A model generated the notes under the pieces. It made no database searches. It was given only the letters and a program-made list of their open reading frames with translations, and was not told the DNA's origin. Positions 12,204-44,282 of a stretch of 64,000 nucleotides of DNA are shown in pieces. A program made the position numbers and the translations under genes. Positions within the stretch are counted from its first letter, which is position 1, and every line of letters begins with the position of its first letter. The DNA comes from Flavobacteriaceae bacterium PS02337. Its GTDB lineage: Bacteria; Bacteroidota; Bacteroidia; Flavobacteriales; Flavobacteriaceae. The DNA lies in the NCBI GenBank assembly GCA_029959285.1, contig JASCOE010000020.1, positions 1-64,000 of the forward strand. Direction: 5' to 3'.

Positions 12204-12214
12204 AACTTTACATC

Positions 12215-15194: not shown

Positions 15195-15224
15195 AAGATT
15201 ATAAATTAATCACAATTATTACTC

Positions 15225-16541: not shown

Positions 16542-16571
16542 TTCTATCACAATCACTTAAAATATAATATC

Positions 16572-17633
16572 ATGGCACACAATATAAATTATAACGAGCA
16601 CACGGGAAAATACAGTTTTTTCAGCACTAAGCAAAAAGCATGGCACAATTTGGGGCAGATCATTACCGATTACCCCACAAGCGCCGAGGCAATTCAGCAC
16701 GCAGGTTTGGATTATGAGGTAGAAAAACGAAAACTGTTTACAGCTGGTTCTGCCGAAATTATTTTGGATAATGAAATCGTTCATAATAATATAGAAGTAC
16801 CAAATTACTACAGTACGGTGCGCACCGATAATGATGCCGTAATCGGTGTAGTGGGCAAAGACTACCAAATCGTACAAAACAGGGATGCCTTTTCTTTTTT
16901 TGACAGCATCGTTGGCGGTGACGGTATCCTATACGAAACCGCAGGGGCGCTCGGAAAAGGGGAACGCATTTTTATAACAGCTAAACTGCCCGATTATATA
17001 AGGGTGGGTAACGATGATTTGATTGAGAAATATATTTTCCTGACCACCTCACATGACGGAAGCGGAAGCATAACCGCAGCATTCACGCCTATACGCATTG
17101 TATGCAATAATACCCTGAATGCCGCTATGAACAACAAGACCAATACCGTTCGTATTCGCCATACCTCCAATGCCAGACAGCGATTGGAACAGGCACACAA
17201 AGTAATGGGGATATCCGATATGCTGTCTTCTCAGATGGAATCCATTTTTAACCATTGGACAAAAATCCGAATCACGGACAATGAAGTGAAAAAACTGATA
17301 CAGTCTGCCCTTGTTCCCAATAAGGAAGTGCTCAAAACCATACAAGAGGGTAAGGAGGATGAACTCTCCACTTGCTTTACCAATATGGTGGATAGTGCAT
17401 TTGAATATGCCATGAGCAATCCCACACAGCTTATGGAAACCACCAAAGGGACTGTCTTTGGGGCGTACAATTCTTTGACTGGCTATTTTCAGAATGTGAG
17501 AAATTACAAGAACGATGAAGCCAAATTAACTTCCCTCTTAATGGGGGGTACAGGGCAGATACGCACGCAGTCCGCTTTTAACCTTTGCGTGGATTTTGCC
17601 AGTAAAGGCTCGGATGCCTTGATTTTGAATTAA
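16572..17633 (+). CDS. DUF932 domain phage/plasmid-like protein
   Basis: The 353-residue protein matches the DUF932 (plasmid/phage-like TIGR03299) pattern: an N-terminal segment around KAWHNLGQIITDYPTSAEA, a central conserved block DYQIVQNRDAFSFFDSIVGG and the hallmark FTPIRIVCNNTLNAA near residue 175. The molecular role of this family is unknown, but it is common on conjugative elements beside ssb. It follows ssb by 30 nt. A short-protein gene and the PRTRC genes follow immediately. Confidence 0.87.
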   Translation: MAHNINYNEHTGKYSFFSTKQKAWHNLGQIITDYPTSAEAIQHAGLDYEVEKRKLFTAGSAEIILDNEIVHNNIEVPNYYSTVRTDNDAVIGVVGKDYQIVQNRDAFSFFDSIVGGDGILYETAGALGKGERIFITAKLPDYIRVGNDDLIEKYIFLTTSHDGSGSITAAFTPIRIVCNNTLNAAMNNKTNTVRIRHTSNARQRLEQAHKVMGISDMLSSQMESIFNHWTKIRITDNEVKKLIQSALVPNKEVLKTIQEGKEDELSTCFTNMVDSAFEYAMSNPTQLMETTKGTVFGAYNSLTGYFQNVRNYKNDEAKLTSLLMGGTGQIRTQSAFNLCVDFASKGSDALILN

Positions 17634-17681
17634 TCAATAGGGGACAGGCAGTCTATGCCTGTCCTTTTAAATCCTGAGAGC

Positions 17682-17888
17682 ATGATACAAATAGAAGATA
17701 AAAACGGAGAAAACATTGAGGTGCTAAATTTAGCAGAAGCAATAAAACAGGCGGACTATTTCAGGAGTTTTTCCCATACCGAGAAACTCTTTGAAAAGTT
17801 TGATAAAAAACGGCAAGCCTATTGGCAAGACCTGTACGAAAAATTAGTAGCGATTAGTGATTTAGAGGTAAAACAAACAAAACAGTAA
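17682..17888 (+). CDS. Hypothetical 68-residue protein of the PRTRC gene run
   Basis: A small acidic/basic helical protein (MIQIEDKNGENIEVLNLAEAIKQ, then KLFEKFDKKRQAYWQDLYEKL). I chose the ATG at 17682 rather than 17655 because the upstream nine codons look non-coding. It has no signal peptide, membrane helix or recognised domain. The gap to the PRTRC E gene is 4 nt, which strongly suggests co-translation. Its role is unknown. Confidence 0.65.
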   Translation: MIQIEDKNGENIEVLNLAEAIKQADYFRSFSHTEKLFEKFDKKRQAYWQDLYEKLVAISDLEVKQTKQ

Positions 17889-17892
17889 AGCA

Positions 17893-18432
17893 ATGGAAAC
17901 CAATTTTTTTAAATCAATCCTTTCCCTGCAGGTAGCAGGGAACTGGAAAATAAACATAGCCAAAGAAGATACAGAGAAACTCATTGTATCTGTATTGTTC
18001 TTCAATGATACCATAGGAGATGATGCCCGAAAAAAAGTACCGCCTATTTTACTAAAGGGCACGGCAGAGGAACTCGACAGCGGATTTTTTCAGGCGGTTG
18101 CAGAGCCTGTAAAGGATACTGCACAGCTTTTTGCCAATATGGAACAGTTCCTCAAAGAAAAAGCACAGGCAAAAGTGAGTTCCCAAATGGAAAAAGACAA
18201 CGTTCTGAAAAGGGATAAGGAAAAATCAGAATTGCAGAAACAGTACCAATCAGCCATGAAAAAAGCAGACGAACTCGAAACGGCAGGAAAGTTTAAAGAA
18301 GCGTGGATGAAAGTGCCTCCCGCTGACCTGTACCCTGAGTACAAGGACATCATTCATGCCCGAAAAGCGGAACTTTCCGACAAGTTTCCTGTTGACCTTT
18401 TCAATGACCCTAAAACCGACGAGCCATGTTAA
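17893..18432 (+). CDS. PRTRC system protein E
   Basis: A 179-residue protein recognised as the E member of the PRTRC (ParB-related, ThiF-related cassette) gene set. N-terminal residues 1-65 (METNFFKSIL, VAGNWKIN, LIVSVLFFND, KKVPPILLKGTAEELD) carry the family signature. The C-terminal half is a charged helix, probably a coiled coil (QMEKDNVLKRDKEKSELQK). The biochemical role of PRTRC proteins is not established. The gene overlaps the start of the C gene by 7 nt. Confidence 0.8.
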   Translation: METNFFKSILSLQVAGNWKINIAKEDTEKLIVSVLFFNDTIGDDARKKVPPILLKGTAEELDSGFFQAVAEPVKDTAQLFANMEQFLKEKAQAKVSSQMEKDNVLKRDKEKSELQKQYQSAMKKADELETAGKFKEAWMKVPPADLYPEYKDIIHARKAELSDKFPVDLFNDPKTDEPC

Positions 18433-18644
18433 CAGCTACAACCTTAGAGCGCATCTTTATCTTCAGGGATAAAGAGCACGAGATTAAACTCGCTGACCCA
18501 TCGCCGTCATTCAGCCCCGAAGCGGTACTCAATTTTTATGCCCAGACCTATCCGATTTTAACCACAGCATCCATAGAGGGACCTGTTATAAATGAAGATG
18601 CGGTGCAGTACAAATTTGTATCACAAATCGGAACAAAAGGATAA
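18426..18644 (+). CDS. PRTRC system protein C
   Basis: A 72-residue protein with the compact PRTRC C pattern: LERIFIFRDKEHEIKLADPSP, then FSPEAVLNFYAQTYPILTTA and a final EDAVQYKFVSQIGTKG. The fold may resemble a ubiquitin-like partner of the ThiF-type protein encoded downstream, which would be notable because ThiF/E1 enzymes act on such proteins, but that is an inference. It overlaps the E gene by 7 nt. Confidence 0.8.
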   Translation: MLTATTLERIFIFRDKEHEIKLADPSPSFSPEAVLNFYAQTYPILTTASIEGPVINEDAVQYKFVSQIGTKG

Positions 18645-18647
18645 AGC

Positions 18648-18824
18648 ATGAAAACACAAACCATAACAGGCAGTATCAAAATGCCTAAAAATAAAAAGTT
18701 ATGCAGACTATACAGACAGCTTGGGGAATTCGCAGAAAACACAGACAGACTGCCCGATGCGCAGGAAGTAAAAAAGAACCCGAACAGTTCTGCTCCACTC
18801 GAACTCCTGCCGATGGTTTTTTAA
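18648..18824 (+). CDS. Small ORF between PRTRC C and F, possibly the displaced N-terminus of F
   Basis: An ATG three nt after the C stop opens a 58-codon frame (MKTQTITGSIKMPKNKK, LYRQLGEFAENTDRLPDAQE, ending LELLPMVF). Its composition is protein-like, whereas the overlapping first 40 codons of the F frame are rich in Arg and Cys and look like a shadow. Adding one T to the six-T run at 18816-18821 would fuse this frame to the F frame (LLPMVFLRHSFLPLFEKG). It is either a genuine separate small gene or the 5' part of F separated by a frameshift. Confidence 0.5.
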   Translation: MKTQTITGSIKMPKNKKLCRLYRQLGEFAENTDRLPDAQEVKKNPNSSAPLELLPMVF

Positions 18825-19792
18825 GACATTCATTTCTGCCCTTATTCGAAAAAGGCGAAAAATTACCCGACCAATTTGAGGTGGAAAATGATTTTTTCAA
18901 TTCTCTTGCTATCCTGAAAGGACTGTATGGTTTTGAAACAAGGAATGTGGCAAACAAATCCTATCCGTATAATATCCTCTTGATATACACAGACATTCAG
19001 AAACAGCTTAGTCAATCGGCACAGGATATTGAACTCAAAATAATGCAGGATGATGATGGGACGGTAAAAATGGCAACCCAACATTGTTATAACACCTGCA
19101 ATACACTGTACTATATTCCTGTATTGCCTTTATATAAATTATTACAGGACAGCAGAGAAAAACAAACCGCAGAATTACTGCTCTCTGTTTTTGCCTATCT
19201 CTACCATATTGCAGGGATTCCGTATTACAGGGAAAACAACAGCTATCTTTTTTATAACTACGAGTGTATGGAAGAATGGCTTTTAGAGGATTTAGAGGAT
19301 GAAGATTCCCAATCGGGCAACAGCATGATTTCAGAATTGAATAAGGCTTCTTACTATGGGGATGTTATGCACCGTAAAATATACAATCCCTATCATTTGA
19401 ACGTATTCGAGAAACGTGTAAATAATTATAAAGTAAATACTTCTTTCGAAAATGACTGCCTGAGCGTTGCAAAAAAAGCATTGGGATTACTACAGAAATA
19501 TCCCAGCGATACTATTTTCAGAAATACTTCCAATCAGGTGTTTGAAAGTGAAGAAGGGATTATAAGGGCGGAGCAGTACATTTCTTTTATAGCAGACACC
19601 GATGGAATACTCTATGAAAATATTCAGCGGGTAATCAATGATGAATTCAATGAATGCTCAGAAATTGAAGAACCCACAATCCTGCAAATCTATGATGCCC
19701 AAAACAAGCTGTCCAATACGGCTCTTGATTTTGAATACAGATTATTTCCACTGCTAAATGATTTATGCACCCTTTTAAATAATATGCCATGA
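18701..19792 (+). CDS. PRTRC system protein F
   Basis: The open frame from 18701 encodes up to 363 residues; the convincing part starts near 18826 (RHSFLPLFEKGEKLP). It matches the PRTRC F position and pattern, a large helical protein with motifs NILLIYTDIQKQLSQ, YHIAGIPYYRENNSYLFYNYE and ALDFEYRLFPLLNDL. The first 40 residues are doubtful (see the small upstream frame). The stop overlaps the B gene start by 4 nt. The function of PRTRC F is unknown. Confidence 0.75.
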   Translation: MQTIQTAWGIRRKHRQTARCAGSKKEPEQFCSTRTPADGFLRHSFLPLFEKGEKLPDQFEVENDFFNSLAILKGLYGFETRNVANKSYPYNILLIYTDIQKQLSQSAQDIELKIMQDDDGTVKMATQHCYNTCNTLYYIPVLPLYKLLQDSREKQTAELLLSVFAYLYHIAGIPYYRENNSYLFYNYECMEEWLLEDLEDEDSQSGNSMISELNKASYYGDVMHRKIYNPYHLNVFEKRVNNYKVNTSFENDCLSVAKKALGLLQKYPSDTIFRNTSNQVFESEEGIIRAEQYISFIADTDGILYENIQRVINDEFNECSEIEEPTILQIYDAQNKLSNTALDFEYRLFPLLNDLCTLLNNMP

Positions 19793-20505
19793 AAGATTTA
19801 ACCCAAAGATTTGGAACATTATACCATCCTGTAAAAGCCTTTGTAGTCTATAAGAAAGATACCGCTGACAAATTCATTTATGTGGAAGGCTACGACATGG
19901 ATAAAAACGGCTGTCCCATAAATGCACATCCATTAAGCCGAAGGGAAACTGCACAGCTTGCAAGTGCTTTGGACACATCAGACGAACTCAACTGTAAATT
20001 TTTAAAGCCATCAGGACTGCTCCCTAAAAAGGTATTGTATTTGAATCCCGGGCATGATGGTTCTGCCATTTGGTACACGTCTGCCCAAAAGACCAGTTTA
20101 TTTTTTGTGGAGAGTTTAGGGATTCCAAACGGTGAAACATTTGTACCGCCCTTGTTATGGAAAGCCACTAAAAACACGCTGTACATTTATGCAATGGACA
20201 CCGACAAGGAAATAAACGAACAGACAGTGCTTTATCAGGCACCCTTTTTTAATTTATATAATGACGGCAGGGTCTGTATGGGTACGGTAAAAGTGGATAT
20301 AAAGGCAGATTGTCATTTGGAAGATTTCATGCAATGGTGGGAGCAGTATTTTTTTAACAGCTATTTCAGTCATCTCATTGGAAATACAAGTCCCGTAAAA
20401 GGAAACATCATACAGCTCTGGCAGAAACTGATCGGGAGCACAAAACCATTTCCCGTAAAATCCCTGCTCAAAAATGGTCTAACAATTAAAAACATACTGT
20501 CATGA
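19789..20505 (+). CDS. PRTRC system protein B
   Basis: The 238-residue protein fits the PRTRC B family by position and motifs (FVVYKKDTADKFIYVEGYDMDKNG, VLYLNPGHDGSAIWYT, GETFVPPLLWKATKNTLYIYA, QWWEQYFFNSYFSHL). It has no signal peptide or membrane helix and is probably cytoplasmic. It overlaps the F gene by 4 nt and the ThiF gene by 4 nt, so the cassette is translationally coupled. Biochemical role unknown. Confidence 0.82.
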   Translation: MKDLTQRFGTLYHPVKAFVVYKKDTADKFIYVEGYDMDKNGCPINAHPLSRRETAQLASALDTSDELNCKFLKPSGLLPKKVLYLNPGHDGSAIWYTSAQKTSLFFVESLGIPNGETFVPPLLWKATKNTLYIYAMDTDKEINEQTVLYQAPFFNLYNDGRVCMGTVKVDIKADCHLEDFMQWWEQYFFNSYFSHLIGNTSPVKGNIIQLWQKLIGSTKPFPVKSLLKNGLTIKNILS

Positions 20506-21302
20506 AAACGCAAACCGCCATGCATTACACGCACAATTACCTGATAAATCCAACCAATCCAATAACGGTCAATCTCATTGGGGCAGGAGGGACGGGAAGC
20601 AGGATGCTCACCGAACTCGCAAGAATAAGCCACAGCCTTATCGCTTTGGGACATGCTGGACTGCAGGTGAATCTTTTTGATGATGATGTGGTGACCAAAG
20701 CCAATCAGGGCAGACAGCTTTTTGCAGATGCTGAGGTAGGGCTTCCTAAAGCCGTGGCACTCATCAACCGCACCAACCGCTTTTTCGGTACTGCTTGGAA
20801 AGCCGTAACCGAGCAGTTCTCAACCGCTAACAGGAAATCCCTGCCCAATCGGGGCAGGGCGAACCTGTATGTAAGCTGTGTCGATACTGCAAAGGCACGT
20901 TTTGATATTGCAGATTTTCTGATGAGCAGTGAAAACAGCGATTTTGAGCGTACCAAATCCCTATACTGGCTTGACATCGGCAACGCCGAAAATACAGGAC
21001 AGGCGATACTTTCTACAATCAGGGAAATCCAACAGCCTGATTCCAAACTATACAGGACTGTTCCCAGTCTTCCAATGGTAACCGATGAATTTAGGGAATT
21101 ACTTCAAATGCAGCATGATAACAATGAGCCGAGCTGTTCCCTCGCTGAAGCGCTTGAAAAACAGGACTTGTTTATCAACAGCACACTTGCCAGTATGGGC
21201 GCATCGATCCTTTGGAAGCTGTTCCGTGAAGGAATGACCGCCCAAAGGGGATTTTTCCTGAATCTGGCAAGCTTACACGCTGTGCCCATAGTGGTGGGGT
21301 GA
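20502..21302 (+). CDS. PRTRC system ThiF/E1-like protein
   Basis: This 266-residue member of the ThiF/MoeB/E1 superfamily carries the Rossmann nucleotide-binding motif VNLIGAGGTGSRML (about residues 27-40), then an acidic strand FDDDVVTKANQGRQLF and a conserved VSCVDTAKARFDIADF. ThiF-type enzymes adenylate the C-terminus of ubiquitin-like or sulfur-carrier proteins. No CxxC zinc pairs are visible, unlike MoeB. It closes the cassette; ParB-like and A members of canonical PRTRC sets are not seen here. Confidence 0.85.
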   Translation: MKTQTAMHYTHNYLINPTNPITVNLIGAGGTGSRMLTELARISHSLIALGHAGLQVNLFDDDVVTKANQGRQLFADAEVGLPKAVALINRTNRFFGTAWKAVTEQFSTANRKSLPNRGRANLYVSCVDTAKARFDIADFLMSSENSDFERTKSLYWLDIGNAENTGQAILSTIREIQQPDSKLYRTVPSLPMVTDEFRELLQMQHDNNEPSCSLAEALEKQDLFINSTLASMGASILWKLFREGMTAQRGFFLNLASLHAVPIVVG

Positions 21303-23694: not shown

Positions 23695-24033
23695 ATGATG
23701 AGCTATCAAAGATCTATTTTTGTAATTTTACTGGCAGTACGTCTACTGACATTACTGTTGATTTCATGTGGAGACATTGATCGTCCCGTTCATGTTCAGC
23801 AGGACATGGTTTCTCATCAAAAAAGCAGCGATCATAACCACAAAGCTGTTTGCTGTTCGTTTTGCCAGTGTGCAAGCTGCAAAGGAGCTGTTGCTCTTAC
23901 AGAGATAAATGAACTTTTTTTTTATTTTACTTTTCAATTTAAGGGAGGTACTTCAAACTCATATGAATCCTTTTCATCTTATTACCTTAGCTGCATATGG
24001 CAGCCCCCGCAGATAGGCAGCGCTGAAGCATAG
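23695..24033 (+). CDS. DUF6660 family small exported protein (copy 1)
   Basis: A 112-residue protein with a hydrophobic signal segment and possible lipobox (LLLISC, Cys near 25), a His-containing linker (SSDHNHKAVCC) and a Cys cluster CCSFCQCASC, ending with SCIWQPPQIGS. The C-terminal IWQPPQI motif and Cys cluster recur in two other proteins of this window (42.96 and 47.56 kb). Such proteins accompany metal-efflux genes in Bacteroidota. A metal-binding or sensing role at the envelope is inferred. Confidence 0.75.
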   Translation: MMSYQRSIFVILLAVRLLTLLLISCGDIDRPVHVQQDMVSHQKSSDHNHKAVCCSFCQCASCKGAVALTEINELFFYFTFQFKGGTSNSYESFSSYYLSCIWQPPQIGSAEA

Positions 24034-25041: not shown

Positions 25042-25070
25042 AGAGTTGCAAACTACGGATTTGCAACTCT
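25042..25070. terminator. Hairpin terminator between the response regulator and a tiny ORF
   Basis: A perfect 11-bp stem (25042-25052 with 25060-25070, AGAGTTGCAAA type) with a 7-nt loop. It lies 45 nt after the response regulator stop (+) and 18 nt after the minus-strand tiny ORF, so it can serve both. Confidence 0.65.
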
Positions 25071-25087: not shown

Positions 25088-25168
25088 TTATAGTGAAAAA
25101 ACAGTAACAAAGCCCATTAATCCAGTAAGCATTACAACACATTTCCAGCAATTAAGTCTATTGTGCAT
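25088..25168 (-). CDS. 26-residue CWKC peptide (copy 1)
   Basis: A minus-strand frame from ATG 25168 encodes MHNRLNCWKCVVMLTGLMGF followed by VTVFSL. A closely similar peptide is encoded at 43779-43862: NRLNCWKC, LTG and MGFV are shared, while many third codon positions differ. That pattern indicates protein-level selection. The product is a short hydrophobic peptide with a CxxC thiol pair near the N-terminus, probably membrane-attached. Function unknown. A hairpin follows the stop codon, and the 50 nt upstream are also partly conserved between the copies. Confidence 0.55.
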   Translation of the reverse strand: MHNRLNCWKCVVMLTGLMGFVTVFSL

Positions 25169-25306
25169 CTTTATCATATTTTATGTTTAACTTAATAGTG
25201 CAATAGTTGTGCCATAAGACTGACCCTTAATTTTCTAAAAAATATTTTCCATTTGCACTTGTCTCTTTATCAAACAAAAAAATCACAAAAATAATCAAAA
25301 AACCAA

Positions 25307-25357
<51 letters not shown>

Positions 25358-25558: not shown

Positions 25559-25936
25559 TTGAAAAGATTAATCATCATAGTACTTTCTATTTTAATTTTA
25601 TCCCCATCATTTGGGAGCCTGTTTGTATATGCTTCATTCAAACTCAATCAGAAAGAGATAGCCAAAACTATTTGTGTACAGCGTAAATTAGCATTCAACA
25701 GCTGTAATGGTCGTTGTGAACTGCAAAAAAGTATCAAAAAATATTCTGATAACGAAAGAAAAATGCAGGACAGCCTAAAAGATAAATTAGAGCTTGTTTA
25801 TGTTCAAAGTGCTTCTGAAGTAAACTTTGATATTGTTCCTTTTATTGATTCAAAAGAAAATACTTTTATTTTATTTGAAAAGAAACCTATAAAGGCTTCT
25901 AATCTTACTTTTCACCCTCCGCTCTGGTTGGTATAG
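25559..25936 (+). CDS. Small exported three-cysteine protein (copy 1)
   Basis: A 125-residue protein with an N-terminal membrane/signal segment (LIIIVLSILILSPSFGSL). The motif FKLNQKEIAKTICV, eight residues, CNGRCELQK follows; the same arrangement is found in the protein at 29163 (FKLNQKNI, CV, eight residues, CHGKCHLKK). Start is TTG at 25559, the only plausible one because an in-frame stop lies 18 nt upstream. It is placed just before the copper locus. The conserved C-x9-C-x-G-x-C pattern suggests thiol-based metal binding or disulfide chemistry; no function is known. Confidence 0.65.
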   Translation: MKRLIIIVLSILILSPSFGSLFVYASFKLNQKEIAKTICVQRKLAFNSCNGRCELQKSIKKYSDNERKMQDSLKDKLELVYVQSASEVNFDIVPFIDSKENTFILFEKKPIKASNLTFHPPLWLV

Positions 25937-29162: not shown

Positions 29163-29525
29163 ATGAAAAAAGTTTTTAGTTTCACAATGACAATGTTGTT
29201 TCTGCTGGTTTCTTTTCAGCAGGGATTGATTATTGTGCACTTTAAACTCAATCAGAAAAATATTGAACAGGAATTTTGTGTAAACAAGGCAAAGCCAGAA
29301 ATGCAGTGTCATGGTAAATGTCATCTAAAGAAAGAATTAGAAAAATCAGATCCTGTCGATTTGGAGCTTACCAGTATTGGCAAAAAGATTGACATCGCAT
29401 TGCTTTCAAATTTTGATTTTACAATTCGTGTTGTAAAGGTTATGAATTCTAATAAAGTATTAATTTATAAGGAACTGGAACTGCTAGAGCCATACCTTGA
29501 GATTTTTGTACCCCCGCCTATTTAA
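29163..29525 (+). CDS. Small exported three-cysteine protein (copy 2)
   Basis: A 120-residue paralogue of the protein at 25559. It has a signal/membrane segment (FTMTMLFLLVSFQQGLIIV), then FKLNQKNIEQEFCV, eight residues, and CHGKCHLKK. The C-terminal tail ends FVPPPI, comparable with the FHPP tail of copy 1. It is 5 nt after the copper receptor and 58 nt before MbnP, so it is a full member of the copper operon. Probable copper-binding or disulfide partner; function not known. Confidence 0.7.
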   Translation: MKKVFSFTMTMLFLLVSFQQGLIIVHFKLNQKNIEQEFCVNKAKPEMQCHGKCHLKKELEKSDPVDLELTSIGKKIDIALLSNFDFTIRVVKVMNSNKVLIYKELELLEPYLEIFVPPPI

Positions 29526-30515: not shown

Positions 30516-31532
30516 ATGAAAAAAATAATCGGTATCCTATTGCTTTCATTATTGGCAGCATCTTGCAGCAATGATGACTCTGATATGATTTCTATTGATA
30601 ATCCAGAAATCTCACTAAATATTCCATCGGGGTTTCCAGAGCTGAATACTTTTGTGAGTCAAAATAAGCCTACTAAATATGGTGTGGAATTAGGCAAGAA
30701 ACTTTTTTCTGAAAAAAGGTTTAGTGCAGATAATACCATTTCCTGCTCCACCTGTCATATTCAGGAAAATGCTTTTGCAGACGGGCATGCACAAGCCATC
30801 GGAATTCAAGGCAGAATCGGACTTCGTAATACGCCATCCATTCAAAATTTAGCTTTTATGAAGTTTTACAATTGGGATGGAAGTAAGCTCCAATTAGAAA
30901 ATCAGCCGCTGGTTCCTATTATAACCCATGAAGAAATGGATTCGTCTATTTTGGAAGTTATTGGTAAAATTAAAGATGATGCGGTTTACAAAGATTTGTT
31001 CAAAAAAGCATTTGGAGATGAGAACATTACGCCAGACAGAATCTTTAAAAGTATTGCGCAGTTTGAGTATACTTTAATTTCTGCCAATAGCAAATATGAT
31101 AAAGTAAAACGAAATGAAGTCTCTTTTACAGCAAGCGAACTGCAGGGTTATCAAACCTTTCAGCAAAAATGCGCCAGCTGTCATGCAGGAGAATTGTTTA
31201 CCGATCAGAGCTTTAGAAATATTGGATTTCCAATAAATAAGGATACCAATGAAGCTGGGCGTGGCAGGGTAACAGGCATTCCTTCTGATTTTATGAGTTT
31301 TCGTATTCCTACTTTAAGAAACATTGAATACACGGCTCCTTATGGAAGTTTTGGACAGTTTGCTGATTTAGAATCGGTTATAAACTATTTTGACAATGGG
31401 GTTTTGGATGCTGGGAACCTGGATCCGATTTTTAAAAATAATGGTAAACGAATTCCGCTCACCGAAGAGGAAAAAAATAATCTTATTGCGTTTATGAAAA
31501 CTTTAAGTGACAGTGAGTTCTTAGAAAATTAG
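30516..31532 (+). CDS. MbnH-type di-heme cytochrome c peroxidase family protein
   Basis: This 338-residue lipoprotein (lipobox AASC) has two c-type heme motifs, CSTCH with Cys77/Cys80/His81 and CASCH with Cys219/Cys222/His223. It belongs to the bacterial di-heme peroxidase superfamily (AFADGHAQAIGIQGRIGLRNTPS, FRIPTLRNIEYTAPYGS). The adjacency to MbnP identifies it as MbnH-like, predicted to use peroxide to oxidise a tryptophan of MbnP rather than acting as a general peroxidase. It is the last gene of the copper operon. Confidence 0.85.
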   Translation: MKKIIGILLLSLLAASCSNDDSDMISIDNPEISLNIPSGFPELNTFVSQNKPTKYGVELGKKLFSEKRFSADNTISCSTCHIQENAFADGHAQAIGIQGRIGLRNTPSIQNLAFMKFYNWDGSKLQLENQPLVPIITHEEMDSSILEVIGKIKDDAVYKDLFKKAFGDENITPDRIFKSIAQFEYTLISANSKYDKVKRNEVSFTASELQGYQTFQQKCASCHAGELFTDQSFRNIGFPINKDTNEAGRGRVTGIPSDFMSFRIPTLRNIEYTAPYGSFGQFADLESVINYFDNGVLDAGNLDPIFKNNGKRIPLTEEEKNNLIAFMKTLSDSEFLEN

Positions 31533-33061: not shown

Positions 33062-35062
33062 TTACATTTTTAACCGCTGTATCCTGACAGCGTTTAAGAT
33101 AGCTATAAGAGATACCCCGACATCAGCGATTACCGCTTCCCAAAGCGTAGCCACACCTCCGGCACCTAATGCCAGAACTATTACTTTAACCACCATTGCA
33201 AGGATTATATTCTGCCACACAATTTTCTTAGTTAGTTTTCCAATTTTAATGGCAGTAACAATTTTAGAGGGCTGGTCGTTTTGTATCACGATATCTGCTG
33301 TTTCAATTGTGGCATCACTACCAAGTCCTCCCATAGCTATGCCTGCATCTGCCAGAGCCACAACGGGAGCATCATTTACACCATCACCGACAAAGGCAAT
33401 TTTCTTCCCTTCATTTTTCAGTGCCGTTACTTTCTCCACTTTTCCTTCCGGGAGTAAATCCCCATAAGCATTGTCTATTCCAAGATTTTTGGAAACTTCA
33501 TCCACAACGGTCTGTTTGTCTCCGGAAAGCATTACGGTTTGTATTTTTAAATCATGAAGATCTTTGATCGCTTTTGGGGCATCTTCCTTTATTTTATCTG
33601 CAATTGTAATGTGCCCCTTGTACTGTTGGTCAATGGCAAGCACTACAATAGTATAGACAATAGCATCGACCTCAGACGGATATTCGATGTTAAATTTTTT
33701 CATCAGCTTGGTATTTCCGGCAAGTACTTCTTTTCCATCAATAGTCCCTTTAAGACCATGACCGGAAATTTCCTCTACATTGGAAATCTTTACGCCTTTA
33801 ATAGTGTCTTTGCCAGCATGTTCTACAACTGCAAGCCCGATAGGATGGGTGGACTGGCTTTCGATAGCAGCCGCATATTTAAGGAGTTCATCTTTTTCTA
33901 TCTCTTTTGTATTGATTTCCTGTACTTTAAAGATACCTTCGGTGAGCGTTCCGGTTTTATCCATGACCACTACATTGATTTCAGTCATCACGTCAAGGAA
34001 GTTTGAACCTTTAAATAAAATACCATTTCGGGAGGCAAGTCCTATTCCGCCAAAATAACCCAAAGGTATTGAAACCACAAGGGCACAAGGGCAGCTGATC
34101 ACAAGAAATACCAAAGCCCTGTAGAACCAGACATTAAACTCGTAAGGGTCTACAAAGAGGTAAGGAGCAAAACAGACTGCGACAGCAAGGACAAAAACAA
34201 TAGGTGTGTATACTTTTGCAAATCTGCTTATAAAGAGCTGTGTCTGTGATTTACGAGAGGTGGCATCCTGAACCATTTCAAGGATTTTGCTAAGCTTGCT
34301 GTCCTGAAAAAGCGAAGTCACCTTTACTTCGGCAACCGTATTTAGATTAATCATTCCGGCGTAAATCTGCTCTCCTTTATTTTTTGTATCAGGCTTGCTT
34401 TCCCCAGTCAGGGCTGCTGTATTAAAGGAAGCCTTTTCGGAAATCAATTCGCCGTCCAGGGCTACTTTCTCACCGGGTTTTATCTGAATGATTTCACCAG
34501 GTTTTACTTCTTTTGGATCGACAACCACAAAGTTGCCGTCCCGCTGCACGGCAACTTGATCGGGCCTGATGTCCAAAAGCGCCTTAATGCTTCTTTTCGC
34601 GCGGTTGACCGCTGCGTCCTGAAACCATTCCCCTATGGAATAAAATGCCATCACTGCAACACCCTCGCTATAGGATCCAATGGCAAAAGCACCGATAGTG
34701 GCAACGCTCATTAAGAAAAATTCATTAAAAAAGTCGAATCTTTTGGCCTTTCTGTAAGCCATATATAAAACGTTGTAACCTGCAAGGAGATATGCTGCGG
34801 TAAATATTATAAGGTCAGCCGGAAAGGCCGGGACCAACTCAAACCCGAATTCAAGTACTAGCATTACCACAAGTATAACTATGGCAAGCAGAAGCTGCCA
34901 GTGGCTTTTCCATCCTGAATCAGTATCTTCTGCTCCGTGGTTGTGACCGTCATCATCCGAGTGCATTTCTTCCTGCTGGACAGCCGTTACTTTTTCGTTT
35001 TCTTTTGGATCTCCGGCAGGAGTTCCATTTGGAGTATCTGTATTTTGTTTCTTTTCAATCAT
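33062..35062 (-). CDS. CPC-type heavy-metal translocating P-type ATPase
   Basis: A 666-residue P1B pump that exports divalent metal ions with ATP. Visible motifs are SCPCALV near residue 323 (metal-binding CPC in helix 6), DKTGT with Asp near 367 (phosphorylation), the HP motif STHPIGLAVVEHA and GDGVNDAPVVALADAGIAMG. The N-terminus lacks a ferredoxin-like metal domain; instead it is short, acidic and His-containing (HSDDDGHNHGAEDTD). The type fits Zn/Cd/Pb (ZntA/CadA-like) export, but Co is possible. It ends the minus-strand metal operon. Confidence 0.9.
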   Translation of the reverse strand: MIEKKQNTDTPNGTPAGDPKENEKVTAVQQEEMHSDDDGHNHGAEDTDSGWKSHWQLLLAIVILVVMLVLEFGFELVPAFPADLIIFTAAYLLAGYNVLYMAYRKAKRFDFFNEFFLMSVATIGAFAIGSYSEGVAVMAFYSIGEWFQDAAVNRAKRSIKALLDIRPDQVAVQRDGNFVVVDPKEVKPGEIIQIKPGEKVALDGELISEKASFNTAALTGESKPDTKNKGEQIYAGMINLNTVAEVKVTSLFQDSKLSKILEMVQDATSRKSQTQLFISRFAKVYTPIVFVLAVAVCFAPYLFVDPYEFNVWFYRALVFLVISCPCALVVSIPLGYFGGIGLASRNGILFKGSNFLDVMTEINVVVMDKTGTLTEGIFKVQEINTKEIEKDELLKYAAAIESQSTHPIGLAVVEHAGKDTIKGVKISNVEEISGHGLKGTIDGKEVLAGNTKLMKKFNIEYPSEVDAIVYTIVVLAIDQQYKGHITIADKIKEDAPKAIKDLHDLKIQTVMLSGDKQTVVDEVSKNLGIDNAYGDLLPEGKVEKVTALKNEGKKIAFVGDGVNDAPVVALADAGIAMGGLGSDATIETADIVIQNDQPSKIVTAIKIGKLTKKIVWQNIILAMVVKVIVLALGAGGVATLWEAVIADVGVSLIAILNAVRIQRLKM

Positions 35063-36951: not shown

Positions 36952-38214
36952 TTAGTGGTCATGACCTCCGCCGCCTTCACTTTTCAATAAATGGCTTTGA
37001 ATATAATAGGCCCCTTTGGTCACAATTTTAGAACCTTCATCGATTTTCTGAAGCAGCGTTACTTGTATGAATCCCAGTTGTGAAGTTCCTGTTTTTACTT
37101 CTATACGCTGAAAGTGGTAGGTTTTGCCTTCACTTTCTTCGTGTTTGTCGCCATCATCATGAGCATGCCCCTGCTTGTCATCGTGGGCGTCTTCTTCCTT
37201 ATGTCCCTCTTCAAGAACAAATATAAATTCACGCCCGTCAGCTTTAACTATAGCTTCCAAAGGAAGTGCACTCACGGACTTTATCCCGATATCAATAAGA
37301 GCATTTATATACATTCCAGGAATTAACTGCTGTTTTTCATTGATGATATCCGCGTGAACTGCAACAGATTTAGTTTCATTTTCAAAAGATTTGCCGACAC
37401 TGAAAATTTTTCCTTTAATTTCAGTATTGTCCTGATTGGTCAGTATAAATCTTACGTCCTGTCCCGGTTTTACCTTACGGAGGTCTTTTTCGTAAACCAG
37501 CAGATCAACGTGCAGTTTTGAATTATCTACAATGCCAAGAAGTGGTTTTCCCGCTTCAACATTACTTCCCAATTTGATATTAATTTCAGTTATAAATCCT
37601 GAAATGGGCGCTTTTACAGCCACAGTTGAGGTTGCAGGTCCATTTGGGTTAATGTTTAACGTTGATAACTGTCTTTGAAGAGAACTGAATCTAGCCTTTT
37701 CAATTTCATAATTGGATTTGGTCTGCTGGAATACTTTCTTAGAGTTAACTTCCTCAGCGCTCAGGATTTTTTGTCTTTCAAATTCCAGTTTAAGATACTC
37801 TAAATTGCTTTTAGAAGTAAGGTAGGCCTCCTGCATTTTGGAGAATTCAGGACTTTCAATAGTGGCAATAACTTGTCCTTTATTCACGTGCTGGCCTTCT
37901 ATGACAGATATACTTTTAACGATTCCGGTTGTAAAGACAGATACATCTGCCTGATTCTGCGGAGGCAGTTTTGTATAACCGTTAGCATTGATAACATCAC
38001 TTAGATTTTTCTGGGAAAAGCCTCCAAGCTCTATTTTTGATCCTGTAAACTGAGCTTCATTTAGTTCTACTTCTTTGATTCCCGCACCCTGCTTTTCTTC
38101 GGTTTTCGCTTCTTCTTTTGGAACCTCAGCATCTGTTTTGCGAAGTGTAAAATAAAGGATTATTGCAATTACTAAAGCAGCGCCTATTGCATATATTATA
38201 TTTGATTTTTTCAT
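36952..38214 (-). CDS. RND efflux periplasmic adaptor (CusB/CzcB type)
   Basis: A 420-residue membrane-fusion protein linking the inner-membrane RND pump to the outer-membrane channel. An N-terminal membrane anchor (IIYAIGAALVIAIILYFTL) is followed by barrel-sandwich halves (FTTGIVKSISVIEGQHVNKGQVIATIESPE and VKAPISGFITEINIKLGSNVEAGKPLLGI) around a helical hairpin. Near the C-terminus there is a His/Asp-rich insert (HDDKQGHAHDDGDKHEE) and a GGGGHDH tail, likely metal-binding. It starts 11 nt after the pump gene. Confidence 0.92.
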   Translation of the reverse strand: MKKSNIIYAIGAALVIAIILYFTLRKTDAEVPKEEAKTEEKQGAGIKEVELNEAQFTGSKIELGGFSQKNLSDVINANGYTKLPPQNQADVSVFTTGIVKSISVIEGQHVNKGQVIATIESPEFSKMQEAYLTSKSNLEYLKLEFERQKILSAEEVNSKKVFQQTKSNYEIEKARFSSLQRQLSTLNINPNGPATSTVAVKAPISGFITEINIKLGSNVEAGKPLLGIVDNSKLHVDLLVYEKDLRKVKPGQDVRFILTNQDNTEIKGKIFSVGKSFENETKSVAVHADIINEKQQLIPGMYINALIDIGIKSVSALPLEAIVKADGREFIFVLEEGHKEEDAHDDKQGHAHDDGDKHEESEGKTYHFQRIEVKTGTSQLGFIQVTLLQKIDEGSKIVTKGAYYIQSHLLKSEGGGGHDH

Positions 38215-38225: not shown

Positions 38226-41200
38226 TTATTGATTTATTAAATACTGAATTGCAATTACTGTCTGATTGTATTTGCTGATAGCATCATTATAGTTTAATTG
38301 TATCGTGGAAGCTGTTTCTATACTTTGAACATATTCAACATACGAAATATCGCCGTTTTGATATCCCTTTGTTGCGTTTCGGATTATTGAATTAGCATTC
38401 GCAATTGCAGTGTTCTGGTAAAAGTCAATCAATGACTGATAGGTCTGGAGCTGTTTGGTCAATTGTTCAAATTGAGTTTTTACCTGAGCATAGAGATATT
38501 CGGAATTCTTTTTTTCGACCTCTATGGTAGTTTTGGCTGCCTTTGATCTGGCGGTACCGCTTCCGGCAAACACAGGAAGGGAAACTCCCACTGAGAAGCC
38601 TTGGAACTGCAGCGATTTATCTGCTATGGCAGTGCTGTAAGGATCCTGGCTTCCGCTGATGGATTGTATAAAGTATCCTGCTGAAAAATCAGGAAGTAGC
38701 ACAGACTTTTGAACTTTATAATTGGCCTGGGCAATTTTTACCTGATTCTCAGAAAGCTGAAGACCTGGATTTTGTTTCACAAGGGCAGTGTCAGCGACAA
38801 CAGCAAACGGTATTTGCACAAAAGTGGTATCGGAAGCCATAAAATCGCTGTCAAGATCCATAAGGGTTTTCAGGTTGGAGATTTCAACCTGGAGCTGTGT
38901 GCTGTTTTCCTTAATACGCTGTTCCAGTTCCTGCTGTTTGGCAAGGGCAATAGATTTTTCCAGAGAGTTGGTTTCCCCTGTCTGGAATTTAAGAGCTGCT
39001 GACTTTACAAACTTCTGCAGAATCACATTCTGTTTTTCAAGAATGCGATTTTGTTTTTGAAAATACAGCATTGTGTTCCAGGATTGGCGAATACTGTATT
39101 TTATTTCCTGTTTAGTAATACCTAATCTTGTTTGGCTTGCGTTGCTGTATTCTGTCAGCAGTTTTTTGCGAGCACCGATCTGAAATGGGCTGATTCCCTG
39201 TGTTACACTAATGTTTTTGTCATTGGCCTGCGAGTTGATTTTCCCGAAAGTTCCAAGGAATTCGGTTTTTGGAAGATCCCACGCCGAGCGCAGCAATTGC
39301 GATTGTGCCTGTGTATCGAGCTGGGATGCCTGTATCCTTTTATTATTTTTCAAACCAAGGTCAAGGGCTGTTCCCAAATTCATGGACTGCACAGGTGCCT
39401 GGGCACTTGCTGTCATAGAACACAGAGCCAAAACCAAAACAGTAAGAGCCGCTTTTCCAGGATTTTTGATCTTGCCAATACCTTTTTCAAAATACAGATA
39501 AAGGATGGGAAGTACTATCAGTGTCAGCAATGTTGCAGTAATAAGTCCTCCAATAACAACAGTTGCAAGCGGTTTTTGCACTTCTGCACCAGCATTGGTG
39601 CTGATGGCCATTGGAAGAAATCCCAGTGATGCTACTGCAGCTGTCATGATCACAGGACGCAGTCTGACTTTGGTTCCTTCTCTAATTCGGTCATATACAT
39701 CCTGCATGCCCTCCGCTTTTAATTGGTTAAAATATCCGATAAGCACAATACCATTAAGTACTGCTACACCGAATAACGCTATAAATCCAACTCCGGCAGA
39801 TATACTAAAGGGCATATCACGAATCCAGAGGGCAAAAATTCCGCCAATTGCCGATAATGGTATGGCTGTAAAGATCAGTAATGACTGCTTGATAGAATTG
39901 AAAGTAAAATAAAGTAAAATCAAAATTAGTCCAAGAGCAATAGGAACTGCTATAGAAAGACGCTTGCTGGCATCGATAAGGTTCTCAAAAGACCCTCCGT
40001 AGGTGGTATAATAGCCGTCCGGCAATTTTAATTTAGCATCAAGTTTAGCCTGAATTTCCTTTACAATACTTTCCACATCGCCTCCGCGGACATTAAAACC
40101 GACAACAATTCTTCTCTTTCCGTTCTCACGTGAGATCTGCATAGGACCATCTTCATAATTTACATCTGCGATCTGCTCAAGGGGAATCTGGCTTCCTGAT
40201 GGGAGTGTGATGAAAAGTGTTCGTAAGTTTTCAATATCCTTTCGGCTTTCGTTGTCCAGTCTCACGACCATGTCAAAACGCTTTTCGCCTTCATATACAA
40301 CGCCTGCGGCTTCACCGGCAAATCCCATACGAACTACTTTATTCAAGTCGCCAATTTTTAGGCCATAAAGGGCTAATTTATCTTTATTGTAGCGGATTGT
40401 AATTTGCGGAAGACCCGCAACGCGTTCTGCTTTTGCATCTGCAACGCCTTTCACGCCTTTTATAAGCTGTACAACTTCTTCACCTTTGCTAACCAGCATG
40501 TCGATATCTTCGCCAAATATTTTAATAGCAACATCGCTTCGTACTCCGGTCATAAGCTCATTGAATCGCATTTGGATTGGCTGTGAAAATTCAGTTGAAG
40601 CTCCCGGAATCTCCTCAAGGGCCTCTTCCATTTTTTCCATCAATTCCTCTTTGGTTTCAGCTGAAGTCCATTCACTTTTATCTTTTAGTGTAATGATCAT
40701 ATCACCCGCTTCAATCGGCATCGGATCTGTCGGTATCTCAGCACTACCAATCTTGGTAACGATCATTTTGATTTCAGGAAATTTAGCTCTCAGTATTTTT
40801 TCTGCCTTTGTGGTGGCTTCTATTTCCTGTGTAAGCGAACTTCCTGATGCGATAATAAGGTGTGTAGCAATATCTCCCTCATCAAGCTGTGGAATAAATT
40901 CACCTCCCAGTGAATTAAAAACAAGCAGGGCAACGACAAACAGAGCCAGCGCTACGCCTATTACGGCGGCCCTTACTTTTAGCGCTTTTTCCAATAAAGG
41001 ACTGTAGAAGCGATAAATGGAATCGATTATTTTGTCACTTATGTTTTTCTTATGCCCGGTCTCTTTTTTAAGAGCCAGTGCAGACATCATTGGAACATAG
41101 GTCAGTGAGAGTATGAAAGCACCCAGAATCGCAAAAGAAACCGTTTGTGCCATAGGTCCAAACATTTTTCCTTCAATGCCGACAAGGGCAAGAATCGGCA

Positions 41201-42575
41201 GATAAACTATAAGAATGATGATTTCCCCAAAGGCGGCGCTGCTTCTGATTTTAGAAGAGGCCTGATATACTTCTTCGTTCATTTCTGCTGTATTCAGCTT
41301 GCCTTTATTGCTAACCTGGAGTCGATGAATAATAGCTTCAACGATGATAACGGCACCATCTACAATAAGACCAAAATCTATAGCTCCAAGGCTCATCAGA
41401 TTACCGCTGACACCAAATAGTTTCATCATCGTGATTGCAAACAACAATGCCAGGGGAATAACAGAAGCTACGACAAGTCCGGCCCTCCAGTTACCCAGCA
41501 GGAGTACCAGGATGAATATTACAATAAGGGCACCTTCTATTAGATTTTTTTCGACAGTTGAAATGGCTTTATTTACCAGTACAGTCCTGTCCATGAAAGG
41601 TTCAATTTCTACGCCTTCAGGGAGTGATTTTTTGATCTGCTCCATTCTTTCTTTAACGATCTTTACAATCTCACCGCTGTTTTCACCTTTCAGCATCATT
41701 ACCATCCCTGAAACCTCTTCGCCCTTACCATCTTTGGTAACAGCTCCATAACGGATTCCCGCGCCAATCTGAACCTTGGCGACATCACGAATAAGGATAG
41801 GAATTCCATTTTGGTTTTTCACTACGATCTTATTAATGTCATCGATATTATTAACCATACCGATACCTCTGATAAAGTAGGCATAAGGCTTTTTATCGAT
41901 ATATGCACCTCCGGTATTTTCATTGTTGTTTTCCAGCGCATCGAAAATTTCCGTTATCGTGGTATTCATGCTTTTGAGCTTGTCAGGCTGAACAGCAATC
42001 TCGTATTGTTTAAGCACGCCTCCCAGCGTGTTGACTTCGGCAACTCCTTTTGTTCCGATAAGCTGGGGCTTGATAATCCAATCCTGAATTGTCTTTAATT
42101 CAGTAGCATTGAATTTGTTTTCATACCCTTTTTTAGGGAATACCACGTATTGGTAAATTTCTCCCAATCCAGTACTAAGGGGAGCCATTTCGGGAACTCC
42201 TACACCTTTTGGTATTGTGTTTTCTGCTTCTTTTATTCTTTCGGCAATTTGGGCGCGTGCCCAGTAGATATCAACGTTTTCCTCAAATACCACTGTCACG
42301 ACACTCAGTCCGAAGCGACTGATTGAACGAAGTTCAACCATTCTGGGAATTGATTTTACAGACTGCTCAATTGGATAAGTGATGAATTGTTCCACCTCCT
42401 GAGTGGCAAGTGTAGGGGAGCTGGTGATAATCTGTACCTGATTGTTGGTAATATCCGGTAATGCGTCGATCGGGAGCGTGTAAAGCGAATAGCTCCCTAC
42501 AGCTATAAGTACCAGAGTGAATAGTCCAATAATAAACTTATTATTGATACTAAAATGAATTATTTTATCTAACAT
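38226..42575 (-). CDS. CusA/CzcA-type heavy-metal RND pump fused to a TolC-like outer-membrane domain
   Basis: A 1449-residue protein. Residues 1-1035 form a CusA/CzcA metal RND transporter: MLDKIIHFSINNKFIIGL start, SLGAIDFGLIVDGAVIIVEA in helix 4 with the proton-relay acids, and the LPILYLYFEKG end. A hydrophobic, signal-like stretch (LTVLVLALCSMTASAQA) follows near 1040-1060, then about 390 residues of TolC-type helical outer-membrane factor (ALDLGLKNNKRIQASQLD, SVGVSLPVFAGSG). The fusion is a known Bacteroidota arrangement. The domain likely matures separately if the signal is cleaved. Cargo is probably Zn/Co/Cd or Cu/Ag. Confidence 0.92.
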   Translation of the reverse strand: MLDKIIHFSINNKFIIGLFTLVLIAVGSYSLYTLPIDALPDITNNQVQIITSSPTLATQEVEQFITYPIEQSVKSIPRMVELRSISRFGLSVVTVVFEENVDIYWARAQIAERIKEAENTIPKGVGVPEMAPLSTGLGEIYQYVVFPKKGYENKFNATELKTIQDWIIKPQLIGTKGVAEVNTLGGVLKQYEIAVQPDKLKSMNTTITEIFDALENNNENTGGAYIDKKPYAYFIRGIGMVNNIDDINKIVVKNQNGIPILIRDVAKVQIGAGIRYGAVTKDGKGEEVSGMVMMLKGENSGEIVKIVKERMEQIKKSLPEGVEIEPFMDRTVLVNKAISTVEKNLIEGALIVIFILVLLLGNWRAGLVVASVIPLALLFAITMMKLFGVSGNLMSLGAIDFGLIVDGAVIIVEAIIHRLQVSNKGKLNTAEMNEEVYQASSKIRSSAAFGEIIILIVYLPILALVGIEGKMFGPMAQTVSFAILGAFILSLTYVPMMSALALKKETGHKKNISDKIIDSIYRFYSPLLEKALKVRAAVIGVALALFVVALLVFNSLGGEFIPQLDEGDIATHLIIASGSSLTQEIEATTKAEKILRAKFPEIKMIVTKIGSAEIPTDPMPIEAGDMIITLKDKSEWTSAETKEELMEKMEEALEEIPGASTEFSQPIQMRFNELMTGVRSDVAIKIFGEDIDMLVSKGEEVVQLIKGVKGVADAKAERVAGLPQITIRYNKDKLALYGLKIGDLNKVVRMGFAGEAAGVVYEGEKRFDMVVRLDNESRKDIENLRTLFITLPSGSQIPLEQIADVNYEDGPMQISRENGKRRIVVGFNVRGGDVESIVKEIQAKLDAKLKLPDGYYTTYGGSFENLIDASKRLSIAVPIALGLILILLYFTFNSIKQSLLIFTAIPLSAIGGIFALWIRDMPFSISAGVGFIALFGVAVLNGIVLIGYFNQLKAEGMQDVYDRIREGTKVRLRPVIMTAAVASLGFLPMAISTNAGAEVQKPLATVVIGGLITATLLTLIVLPILYLYFEKGIGKIKNPGKAALTVLVLALCSMTASAQAPVQSMNLGTALDLGLKNNKRIQASQLDTQAQSQLLRSAWDLPKTEFLGTFGKINSQANDKNISVTQGISPFQIGARKKLLTEYSNASQTRLGITKQEIKYSIRQSWNTMLYFQKQNRILEKQNVILQKFVKSAALKFQTGETNSLEKSIALAKQQELEQRIKENSTQLQVEISNLKTLMDLDSDFMASDTTFVQIPFAVVADTALVKQNPGLQLSENQVKIAQANYKVQKSVLLPDFSAGYFIQSISGSQDPYSTAIADKSLQFQGFSVGVSLPVFAGSGTARSKAAKTTIEVEKKNSEYLYAQVKTQFEQLTKQLQTYQSLIDFYQNTAIANANSIIRNATKGYQNGDISYVEYVQSIETASTIQLNYNDAISKYNQTVIAIQYLINQ

Positions 42576-42960: not shown

Positions 42961-43296
42961 TTATGAATTAATCTGAGGGGGCTGCCAAATGCTTCCAGTG
43001 AAGCTTGAAATTAAGATAGATTGGTATTGTGATACCTTAGGAGAAATTTCTTCAATATTTAGAGGGAAATCAAATGAAGCAGCATTCAGGTTACTAACCA
43101 CCTGAATTCCACAGCAGGCACAGCTGCAAAAAGGAGAACATAAGTCTTTTTCTCCTTTGTGTGAATTACTGTCATTATGATTGGATTGTGATATATGGGC
43201 AGATTTTGAAACAGAATTATACATATAAGTATCAGCGCAGGTAATACCCGAGAGGCTTAGCATATAGATAGTTAGTATAAAGCTTATTATTTTCAC
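42961..43296 (-). CDS. DUF6660 family small exported protein (copy 2)
   Basis: 111 residues from GTG 43296 (VKIISFILTIYMLSLSGITC); this start matches copy 3 and leaves a promoter-like TACTTTTA four nt upstream, whereas the longer frame from 43326 would cover it. The product has a signal/lipobox-like end (GITC), a His/Ser linker, the Cys cluster CSPFCSCACC, and the C-terminal SIWQPPQIN motif. It heads the minus-strand metal-efflux gene set. A metal-binding or sensing role is inferred. Confidence 0.72.
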   Translation of the reverse strand: MKIISFILTIYMLSLSGITCADTYMYNSVSKSAHISQSNHNDSNSHKGEKDLCSPFCSCACCGIQVVSNLNAASFDFPLNIEEISPKVSQYQSILISSFTGSIWQPPQINS

Positions 43297-43300
43297 GGCA

Positions 43301-43331
43301 TAAAAGTAAATAATTATTTTTACCATTCCAA
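43301..43331 (-). promoter_or_regulatory. Promoter candidate of DUF6660 copy 2
   Basis: On the minus strand TTG (43329-43331), 20 nt, then TACTTTTA (43301-43308), close to the Bacteroidota TTG/TAnnTTTG consensus. The identical arrangement with the same 20-nt spacing occurs before copy 3. The -7 box is 4 nt from the GTG codon, implying an almost leaderless transcript. Confidence 0.55.
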
Positions 43332-43702: not shown

Positions 43703-43728
43703 AAAGCCATTTCGGATGAAATGGCTTT
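43703..43728 (-). terminator. Intrinsic terminator after the tiny CWKC peptide
   Basis: An 11-bp stem (43703-43713 with 43718-43728, AAAGCCATTTC type) with a 4-nt loop. On the minus strand it is followed by a T-rich tract. It lies 50 nt after the stop of the tiny ORF. Confidence 0.75.
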
Positions 43729-43778: not shown

Positions 43779-43862
43779 TTAATACTGCGAAAAAAATGAA
43801 ACAAAGCCCATAACGCCAGTAAGTACCAACACACATTTCCAACAGTTTAGCCTATTATTCAT
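43779..43862 (-). CDS. 27-residue CWKC peptide (copy 2)
   Basis: From ATG 43862 the minus strand encodes MNNRLNCWKCVLVLTGVMGF and then VSFFSQY. It is homologous to the peptide at 25088 (about two thirds identical), with synonymous and conservative differences. It starts 12 nt after the 135-residue protein gene on the same strand, so the two may be co-transcribed, and it is followed by an intrinsic terminator. Short amphipathic/hydrophobic peptide with one CxxC motif; function unknown. Confidence 0.55.
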   Translation of the reverse strand: MNNRLNCWKCVLVLTGVMGFVSFFSQY

Positions 43863-43874: not shown

Positions 43875-44282
43875 TTAATGTTTATTATAGGAGATTATTG
43901 CAATTTTTGTGCCACGATGAAAATGACTTTCGCAAACCTTAATTGAGAGAATAGAGAATAGGATTTTATTATTAGAAGTATGTTGAAATTCCCAAATTAA
44001 AACATCATGTATTGATGGTGGATTTGAAAAAATGTCTCTTTGTTTTAAATAGCGATAGTTTAGGCGAATGACGGTTTGAGAGGTTGGTCTAAAACTAGTG
44101 GCAGGTATTACACTCCATACATCTTCACCAATATTGCCTCCTGTTTCTTTAAATTTTCCCACGTTCCAATCCACGTATTCAAATCTGCAGGCAAGATTTA
44201 TACTTTCTTTTTTCCATCCAGGATTGTTTTTGTCAAGATGGGCTGTACAATATCTAAAAACAGCCTCTTTGTTTGTCTCCAA
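43875..44282 (-). CDS. Hypothetical 135-residue protein
   Basis: An unrecognised soluble protein (EAVFRYCTAHLDKNNPGWKK, ACRFEYVDWNVGKFKE, DVLIWEFQHTSNNKILFSI). The frame opens with TTG at 44282; it remains open a further 25 codons upstream without ATG, so the true start or an earlier 5' truncation is uncertain. It is followed 12 nt later by the tiny CWKC peptide gene. The end of this gene and the leader of the other CWKC copy share a short stretch around GGCACAA..ATTGCA. Confidence 0.5.
   Translation of the reverse strand: METNKEAVFRYCTAHLDKNNPGWKKESINLACRFEYVDWNVGKFKETGGNIGEDVWSVIPATSFRPTSQTVIRLNYRYLKQRDIFSNPPSIHDVLIWEFQHTSNNKILFSILSIKVCESHFHRGTKIAIISYNKH

Follow-up and report, generated by a model that had tools for sequence, protein, structure and literature searches.

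Very small CWKC peptides of Flavobacterium and another Bacteroidota family that probably assist or regulate metal export

Peptides of about 25 residues that carry a CWKC motif probably assist or regulate metal export as very small accessory proteins, a role we propose because they sit among zinc, cadmium and cobalt export genes and mostly come with a control element and a terminator of their own. Two copies lie in the window, by which we mean the whole 64,000-nucleotide stretch of DNA analyzed here (Flavobacteriaceae bacterium PS02337, contig JASCOE010000020.1, positions 1 to 64,000). Read from the sequences of the loci compared, the peptide is under purifying selection, has a near-fixed CWKC, keeps to metal islands and in most loci is framed by a private promoter-like element and a terminator-like hairpin. 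Work on metal-resistance islands has centered on their pumps. A peptide that is conserved across two families, at the 33 loci analyzed, and that no model in the searched libraries of protein families recognizes would fill a gap in a system already well studied.

The peptide pair, its relatives and its conservation

Both copies are on the minus strand. Copy 1 (25088..25168) has 26 residues and reads MHNRLNCWKCVVMLTGLMGFVTVFSL before its stop codon, and copy 2 (43779..43862) has 27 and reads MNNRLNCWKCVLVLTGVMGFVSFFSQY before its own; an in-frame ATG upstream of copy 1, at 25177, could lengthen that peptide by three residues. An earlier sequence-only reading of the window had taken the two minus-strand frames to encode related peptides with mostly third-position differences, and reading both frames bears this out. 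Across the 19 codons that can be compared (R to S/T) the copies differ at 14 sites, 9 synonymous and 5 nonsynonymous, and these fall at codon positions 1, 2 and 3 in the numbers 4, 0 and 10, so that the differences are far from evenly spread. In the host genome of 5.7 Mb, copies 1 and 2 are the only two significant peptide matches, the third match having an E value of 0.58.

Further copies were found in other genomes, in Flavobacterium and in a second Bacteroidota family (f18), so that neither of the two outcomes named beforehand as refuting that reading, an absence of copies elsewhere or evenly spread differences, was observed. Among 399 Flavobacterium genomes, 16 gave a total of 20 matches at E 1.7e-8 or better, and 36 more genomes that matched at E 0.001-0.05 only were treated as chance. 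In f18, 15 of 294 genomes match at E 4.2e-8 or better, two more matches (E 5e-4 and 8e-4) again being treated as chance, and a typical peptide of this family reads MNRLNCWKCVVMLASVLGMVSAFSA. The motif CWKC is read by 33 of the 35 matches with E < 1e-7 (20 from Flavobacterium and 15 from f18). One of the two exceptions is a copy in genome G066 that reads CCRY and is without the sigma-54-like box described below; the other, in G1391 (L120 / L140), has TGA at the Trp codon with the remaining frame and the leader intact, and may be a pseudogene, a sequencing error or otherwise. Searches of 395 genomes across the phylum and 395 across the class gave convincing matches in Flavobacterium and f18 only, plasmid records gave no peptide match, and the one phage match was at chance level (E 8). 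Fusion to larger proteins was considered and rejected, as the weak matches lie in frames of 361-634 residues and the four inspected read NSWKY, NLWKY or similar, without cysteines. The suggestion that the peptides might be undescribed agrees with what the libraries returned: no NCBIfam family for four peptides (E up to 10), no Pfam family for two (E up to 0.01), and, among open-licence PMC papers, none with NCWKC or DUF6660 and none found on such peptides. The string CWKC appears there, as far as the excerpts extend, only under human genetics, nutrition or network computing.

The comparisons that follow use a set of 33 loci, 14 from f18 and 19 from Flavobacterium, the latter being the two window copies, 15 loci of 14 other genomes, L090 and L092. 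The set leaves out the G114 pair, which repeats the window copies, together with the CCRY copy, L140 of G1391 and some others. Because only CWKC-reading loci were retained, the invariance of CWKC in this set is by construction, and because it contains near-duplicates (L061/L072, L064/L065, L062/L063/L066/L073, L067/L092 and L074/L090) the number of independent loci is below 33.

Purifying selection acts on the CWKC peptide, as judged from codon comparisons. The 33 loci plus the two of G114 yield 25 distinct 19-codon stretches, in which pS is 0.68 and pN 0.24 in frame, a ratio of 0.35. The two remaining forward frames have ratios of 1.46 and 1.82, and the three reverse frames 1.49, 0.42 and 2.93, so that one antisense frame is also low. 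Together with the third-position bias, the in-frame ratio supports the earlier proposal of selection on the peptide. After CWKC, five positions are restricted to V/I, L/I, S/A/T, S/G/A and G/A. The 33-locus set holds 27 distinct full peptides of 22-27 residues, and all 27 have a charge of +2 or +3 up to CWKC and none beyond it, with a mean hydropathy of 1.8-2.5 across the 15 residues after the motif. One hydrophobic stretch with positive-inside charge, as expected of a single-helix small membrane protein, is present in 27 of 27, the stretch being short at about 15 residues; the CxxC pair and hydrophobic remainder that had been remarked on in the window recur across the family, the pair being nearly fixed. 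A membrane thiol or metal peptide, as suggested there, would be a candidate role drawn from such sequence features and from the neighborhood. The positive-inside rule governs membrane topology, and because of it we predict an N-in arrangement with CWKC at the cytoplasmic face. We rate the CWKC peptides as a so far unnamed family of putative small single-helix membrane proteins, a variant with a CxxC and a home in metal islands.

Promoter-like elements and terminator-like hairpins

The leader common to both copies, noted earlier as related, is now read as a sigma-54-like -24/-12 promoter element, TGGCAC-N5-TTGCA, on the minus strand at 25199..25214 for copy 1 and at 43899..43914 for copy 2. The latter lies inside a remnant frame (43875-44282), a 135-residue remnant of a porin-like gene (410 residues in relatives) whose 3' end holds the copy 2 element. 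An excerpt of PMC12316311 gives the sigma-54 consensus as TGGCACN5-7TTGCT and grpE in F. psychrophilum as served by sigma-54. In the window, exact TGGCACN5TTGC matched twice only, both times at the peptide copies, and with one mismatch allowed there are 3 matches vs 3.3 in shuffles. The 5.7 Mb host genome has the exact pattern four times, two of them at the peptides, and the reversed control pattern also four times; a variant sigma-54-like pattern occurs 6 times vs 3 for its reversed control. Among the Flavobacterium loci, 13 of 19 have TGGYAY-N5-TTGY 31-39 nt before the ATG, as compared with 0 of 14 in f18. A similar pattern gave 19 matches across 21 sequences: 12 stand directly before peptides (two being the G114 duplicates) and the remaining seven lie elsewhere, six of these within frames. 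Five other genomic sites of the sigma-54-like pattern were inspected; frames contain four of them, and the fifth (L129) precedes a glycosyltransferase frame. The gene rpoN was found in 34 of 34 genomes and activator-domain matches in 18 of 18, and no common upstream activator site was recognized in the leaders. As a separate observation, a (CT)23 dinucleotide tract (25310-25355, minus strand) lies 95 nt upstream of the copy 1 element, where an activator site would be expected; it is the window's only dinucleotide tract of at least 8 units, and the near-identical strain G114 (L077) has 26 CT units at an equal distance from the element.

The ordinary Bacteroidetes promoter has the consensus TTG-N17-23-TAnnTTTG. 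This candidate was rejected, as TAnnTTTG occurs within 120 nt in one of 33 leaders and in none with TTG 17-23 nt ahead. The f18 loci have a private element of another kind, TTAACAA-N17-ATGTATTT, in 8 of 14 cases, placed 23 nt before the called frame in seven loci and 8 nt before it in L134. Across 271 kb of f18 neighborhoods it occurs nine times, eight at peptides and once in L140. With its small palindrome, this leader element (TTAACAA-N17-ATGTATTTTTACA in L130-L135, L139, L113 and L140) is possibly an operator or promoter for some factor, and since it differs from the Flavobacterium box, each family has equipped the peptide with its own control element. That f18 carries a different element also bears on whether the Flavobacterium leader is instead the site of another regulator, a reading that would leave the function of the peptide unchanged and that gains from the unrecognized activator site and from the equal genomic counts of the pattern and its reversed control. 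We find it doubtful, given that the leader is the exact sigma-54 consensus (excerpt of PMC12316311), that spacing and distance are fixed in 13 loci, that rpoN is present and that the 33 leaders are free of the ordinary promoter. As a sigma-54-like promoter, the element would also offer a way into the sigma-54 regulon of Bacteroidota, about which little is known.

The downstream hairpins proposed for each copy were located as terminator-like structures on the minus strand, at 25042..25070 for copy 1 (one found in the region vs 0.2 expected from shuffles) and at 43703..43728 for copy 2 (one vs 0.4). Such a hairpin lies no more than 130 nt past the stop in 22 of 33 loci vs 4 of 660 mononucleotide shuffles. 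In eight f18 loci, a 14-bp stem is 92.9% paired vs 35-56% in slid controls, a count that includes L139, the one row that is out of register in the alignment; five pairs of the stem are altered on both sides, and one of five pairing measures (further pair types) is not above shuffles.

Four loci (L062, L063, L066 and L073) are without the sigma-54-like box. In L064, two 7-nt repeat copies bracket a 75-nt stretch, box included, that L062 lacks; the leaders of L063, L066 and L073 match that of L062. In this group the hairpin has decayed and the peptide is intact, 25 nt after the stop of a DUF1345 frame. That the box was lost, rather than gained elsewhere, is suggested by its presence in other lineages. 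Because the group kept the peptide after losing both box and hairpin, these loci point to the protein, not the RNA, as the selected product.

Metal-export islands and the role of the peptide

Within 10 kb of the 33 loci (less at contig ends) we find CzcA at 25, CzcB at 26, a CadA-type ATPase at 23, DUF6660 at 22, DUF1345 at 16, MgtC at 16 and a cation efflux (CDF) protein at 8. These labels are those of blastp clusters, with single representatives checked by Pfam or NCBIfam and CzcA by TIGR00914. For 29 of the 33 loci, one or more of CzcA, CzcB and CadA is found inside this distance. The exceptions are L073 and L113, whose contigs are short, and L060 and L138, where CzcA is matched about 14 kb away. 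CzcA-type pumps occur in 55 of 57 genomes with up to 12 matches per genome, and the chance of such a gene in a random 20 kb is at most about 8% by a hand estimate. The converse association fails, as most genomes with CzcA-type pumps are without the CWKC peptide. The peptide is rare (16 of 399 Flavobacterium genomes) while these pumps are common, and metal export therefore works without it.

In the window, the minus strand carries a CadA-type cadmium/zinc P-type ATPase (33062..35062; TIGR01512, TIGR01525), a CzcB-type RND periplasmic adaptor (36952..38214; it passes TIGR01730 but stays under the cut-off of the CzcB model TIGR00999), a CzcA-type RND pump with a C-terminal extension (38226..42575; TIGR00914 over 39489-42575) and, downstream of copy 2, a DUF6660 protein (42961..43326; Pfam 35.3 bits, cut-off 27). 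A DUF6660-like protein near copy 1, on the plus strand (23695..24033), scores 17.8 bits in Pfam, below the same cut-off of 27. The sequence-only reading had placed a DUF6660 gene within 1-1.5 kb of each copy, which is right for copy 1 (about 1.05 kb), whereas copy 2 is nearer (about 0.45 kb). Its link to DUF6660 holds in the sense that 22 of 33 loci have such a gene within 10 kb, but the tie is to whole czc/cad metal-export islands (CzcB, 26 of 33), and a DUF6660-specific partnership, being no stronger than the whole-island link, was rejected.

Other features of the window are recorded here in their own right. A third Cys-rich protein (47557-47895) looks DUF6660-like yet has no Pfam match. Two related small proteins of 125 and 120 residues (25559-25936 and 29163-29525) share the motif FKLNQK..C....C.G.C and have no Pfam or NCBIfam match, and near them is an MbnH-like di-heme enzyme (30516-31532) that falls below its model cut-off. 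By sequence look, relaxase-like, coupling-protein-like and integrase-like frames lie at 10522-21302 and 60462-61778, which suggests that the metal island is in or beside a conjugative element.

Our preferred reading, which we hold with slightly less than even confidence, is that the CWKC peptide is a selected single-helix membrane miniprotein of 22-27 residues serving metal export. In Flavobacterium, a sigma-54 promoter would yield, under stress, a transcript of about 150-195 nt, and the peptide would enter the inner membrane as a single short helix, N-terminus inside, with CWKC lying at the cytoplasmic face. S/A/T-xxx-G/A is a usual spacing for helix packing, and the small residues conserved here, Ser/Ala/Thr followed four positions later by Gly/Ala, may pack onto a partner helix. 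The two cysteines could bind a soft metal ion, either to sense it or to pass it on, and the peptide would help or regulate an island metal exporter (CadA, Czc or another), proximity within the island naming no partner. One candidate arrangement, in which the peptide supplies a CxxC in trans to CadA, was rejected. The CadA-type ATPases near the peptide (656-735 residues) have no CxxC before the CPC motif in 24 of 24 cases. Both L077, a near-duplicate, and L140, with its possible pseudogene, are counted; left out are the CopA-like ATPase of L131, which bears CxxC, and two fragments. In 12 genomes where the peptide gave no significant match, 13 of 13 CadA-type ATPases likewise have no N-terminal CxxC, so the contrast gives no support to supply in trans. 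A more ambitious version of the preferred reading would make the CWKC peptides a new class of metal-sensing membrane micro-subunits: free-standing CxxC helices, induced through sigma-54 by metal or envelope stress, that dock on P-type or RND exporters, gate or load them, have spread with metal islands through Bacteroidota and were overlooked because of their size. We offer this version as speculation that we ourselves are inclined to doubt. Because the private promoter-like element is present in some natural variants and missing from others, the family provides a compact test of how very small membrane proteins work with transporters.

Several rival explanations bear on the same evidence. The best RNA-level rival is an attenuator leader peptide, for which a ribosome on the CWKC frame would decide termination at the hairpin before a downstream metal gene. 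In 19 of 33 loci another frame, frequently CadA or a neighbor of it, begins on the same strand no more than about 100 nt further down, the hairpin in many loci stands between this frame and the peptide, and the conserved core holds two Cys codons and one Trp codon, all of which would suit such a device. A same-strand gene after the hairpin is nevertheless not general, and in copy 1, L060, L069, L070 and L141 the next downstream gene is on the opposite strand, so that there is nothing to attenuate; selection running along the hydrophobic part and the L062 group, which lost the hairpin and kept the peptide, also make attenuation distinctly unlikely. At the other extreme, frames this short could be chance or decayed and without function, as the copy that lost both CWKC and the element and the copy with an in-frame TGA at the Trp codon might illustrate; conservation across two families, the third-position bias and the repeated architecture reduce the probability of this to almost nothing.

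Other membrane roles would account for the same peptide. Small membrane peptides that act as signaling regulators are known elsewhere, and the CWKC peptide could sense metal or envelope damage and act on a histidine kinase or protease instead of a pump. An OmpR-type response regulator adjoins copy 1, which fits this role, but no kinase is among the recurrent neighbors of the peptide, and we consider the role unlikely. The size, hydrophobicity and positive end of the peptide, and the private transcript predicted to be under strong control, would also suit a membrane peptide resembling type I toxins and kept under control by antisense RNA or a tight promoter. A metal-island context is unusual for type I toxins, and with four loci in an operon-like position without a private element, we regard a toxin as very unlikely.

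Comparison with known systems

DUF6660 (PF20365) is likewise small and Cys-rich and shares the same islands (22 of 33 loci). At about 110-120 residues and with another sequence, it is a neighbor of the CWKC peptide and not a relative. HMA and CopZ are CxxC metal-binding domains or chaperones whose usual surroundings are GMTCxxC. The CWKC peptide resembles them in having a CxxC pair on the presumed cytoplasmic side and in its metal context, yet 25 residues are too short for a domain fold, the core is without the GMTCxxC surroundings, and Pfam finds no HMA/CopZ domain in it. ZraP and ZraSR of enterobacteria form a sigma-54-dependent zinc response in which ZraP is a larger, periplasmic protein. 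ZraR is mentioned in an excerpt of PMC12316311. What the two systems have in common is a small protein linked to metals and preceded by a sigma-54-type promoter; the CWKC peptide differs in being smaller, and no ZraR-type activator was found beside it.

KdpF, MgtR, AcrZ, CydX (PMC6005532) and sarcolipin are small membrane proteins with a single helix that belong to transporters or enzymes. The CWKC peptides are like them in description, with about 25-50 residues, one hydrophobic, putatively helical stretch and a gene that lies close to, or within, an operon for membrane machinery. Unlike these proteins, the CWKC peptides begin their predicted helix with a near-fixed CxxC and reside in metal-export islands, often with a private promoter-like element and a terminator.
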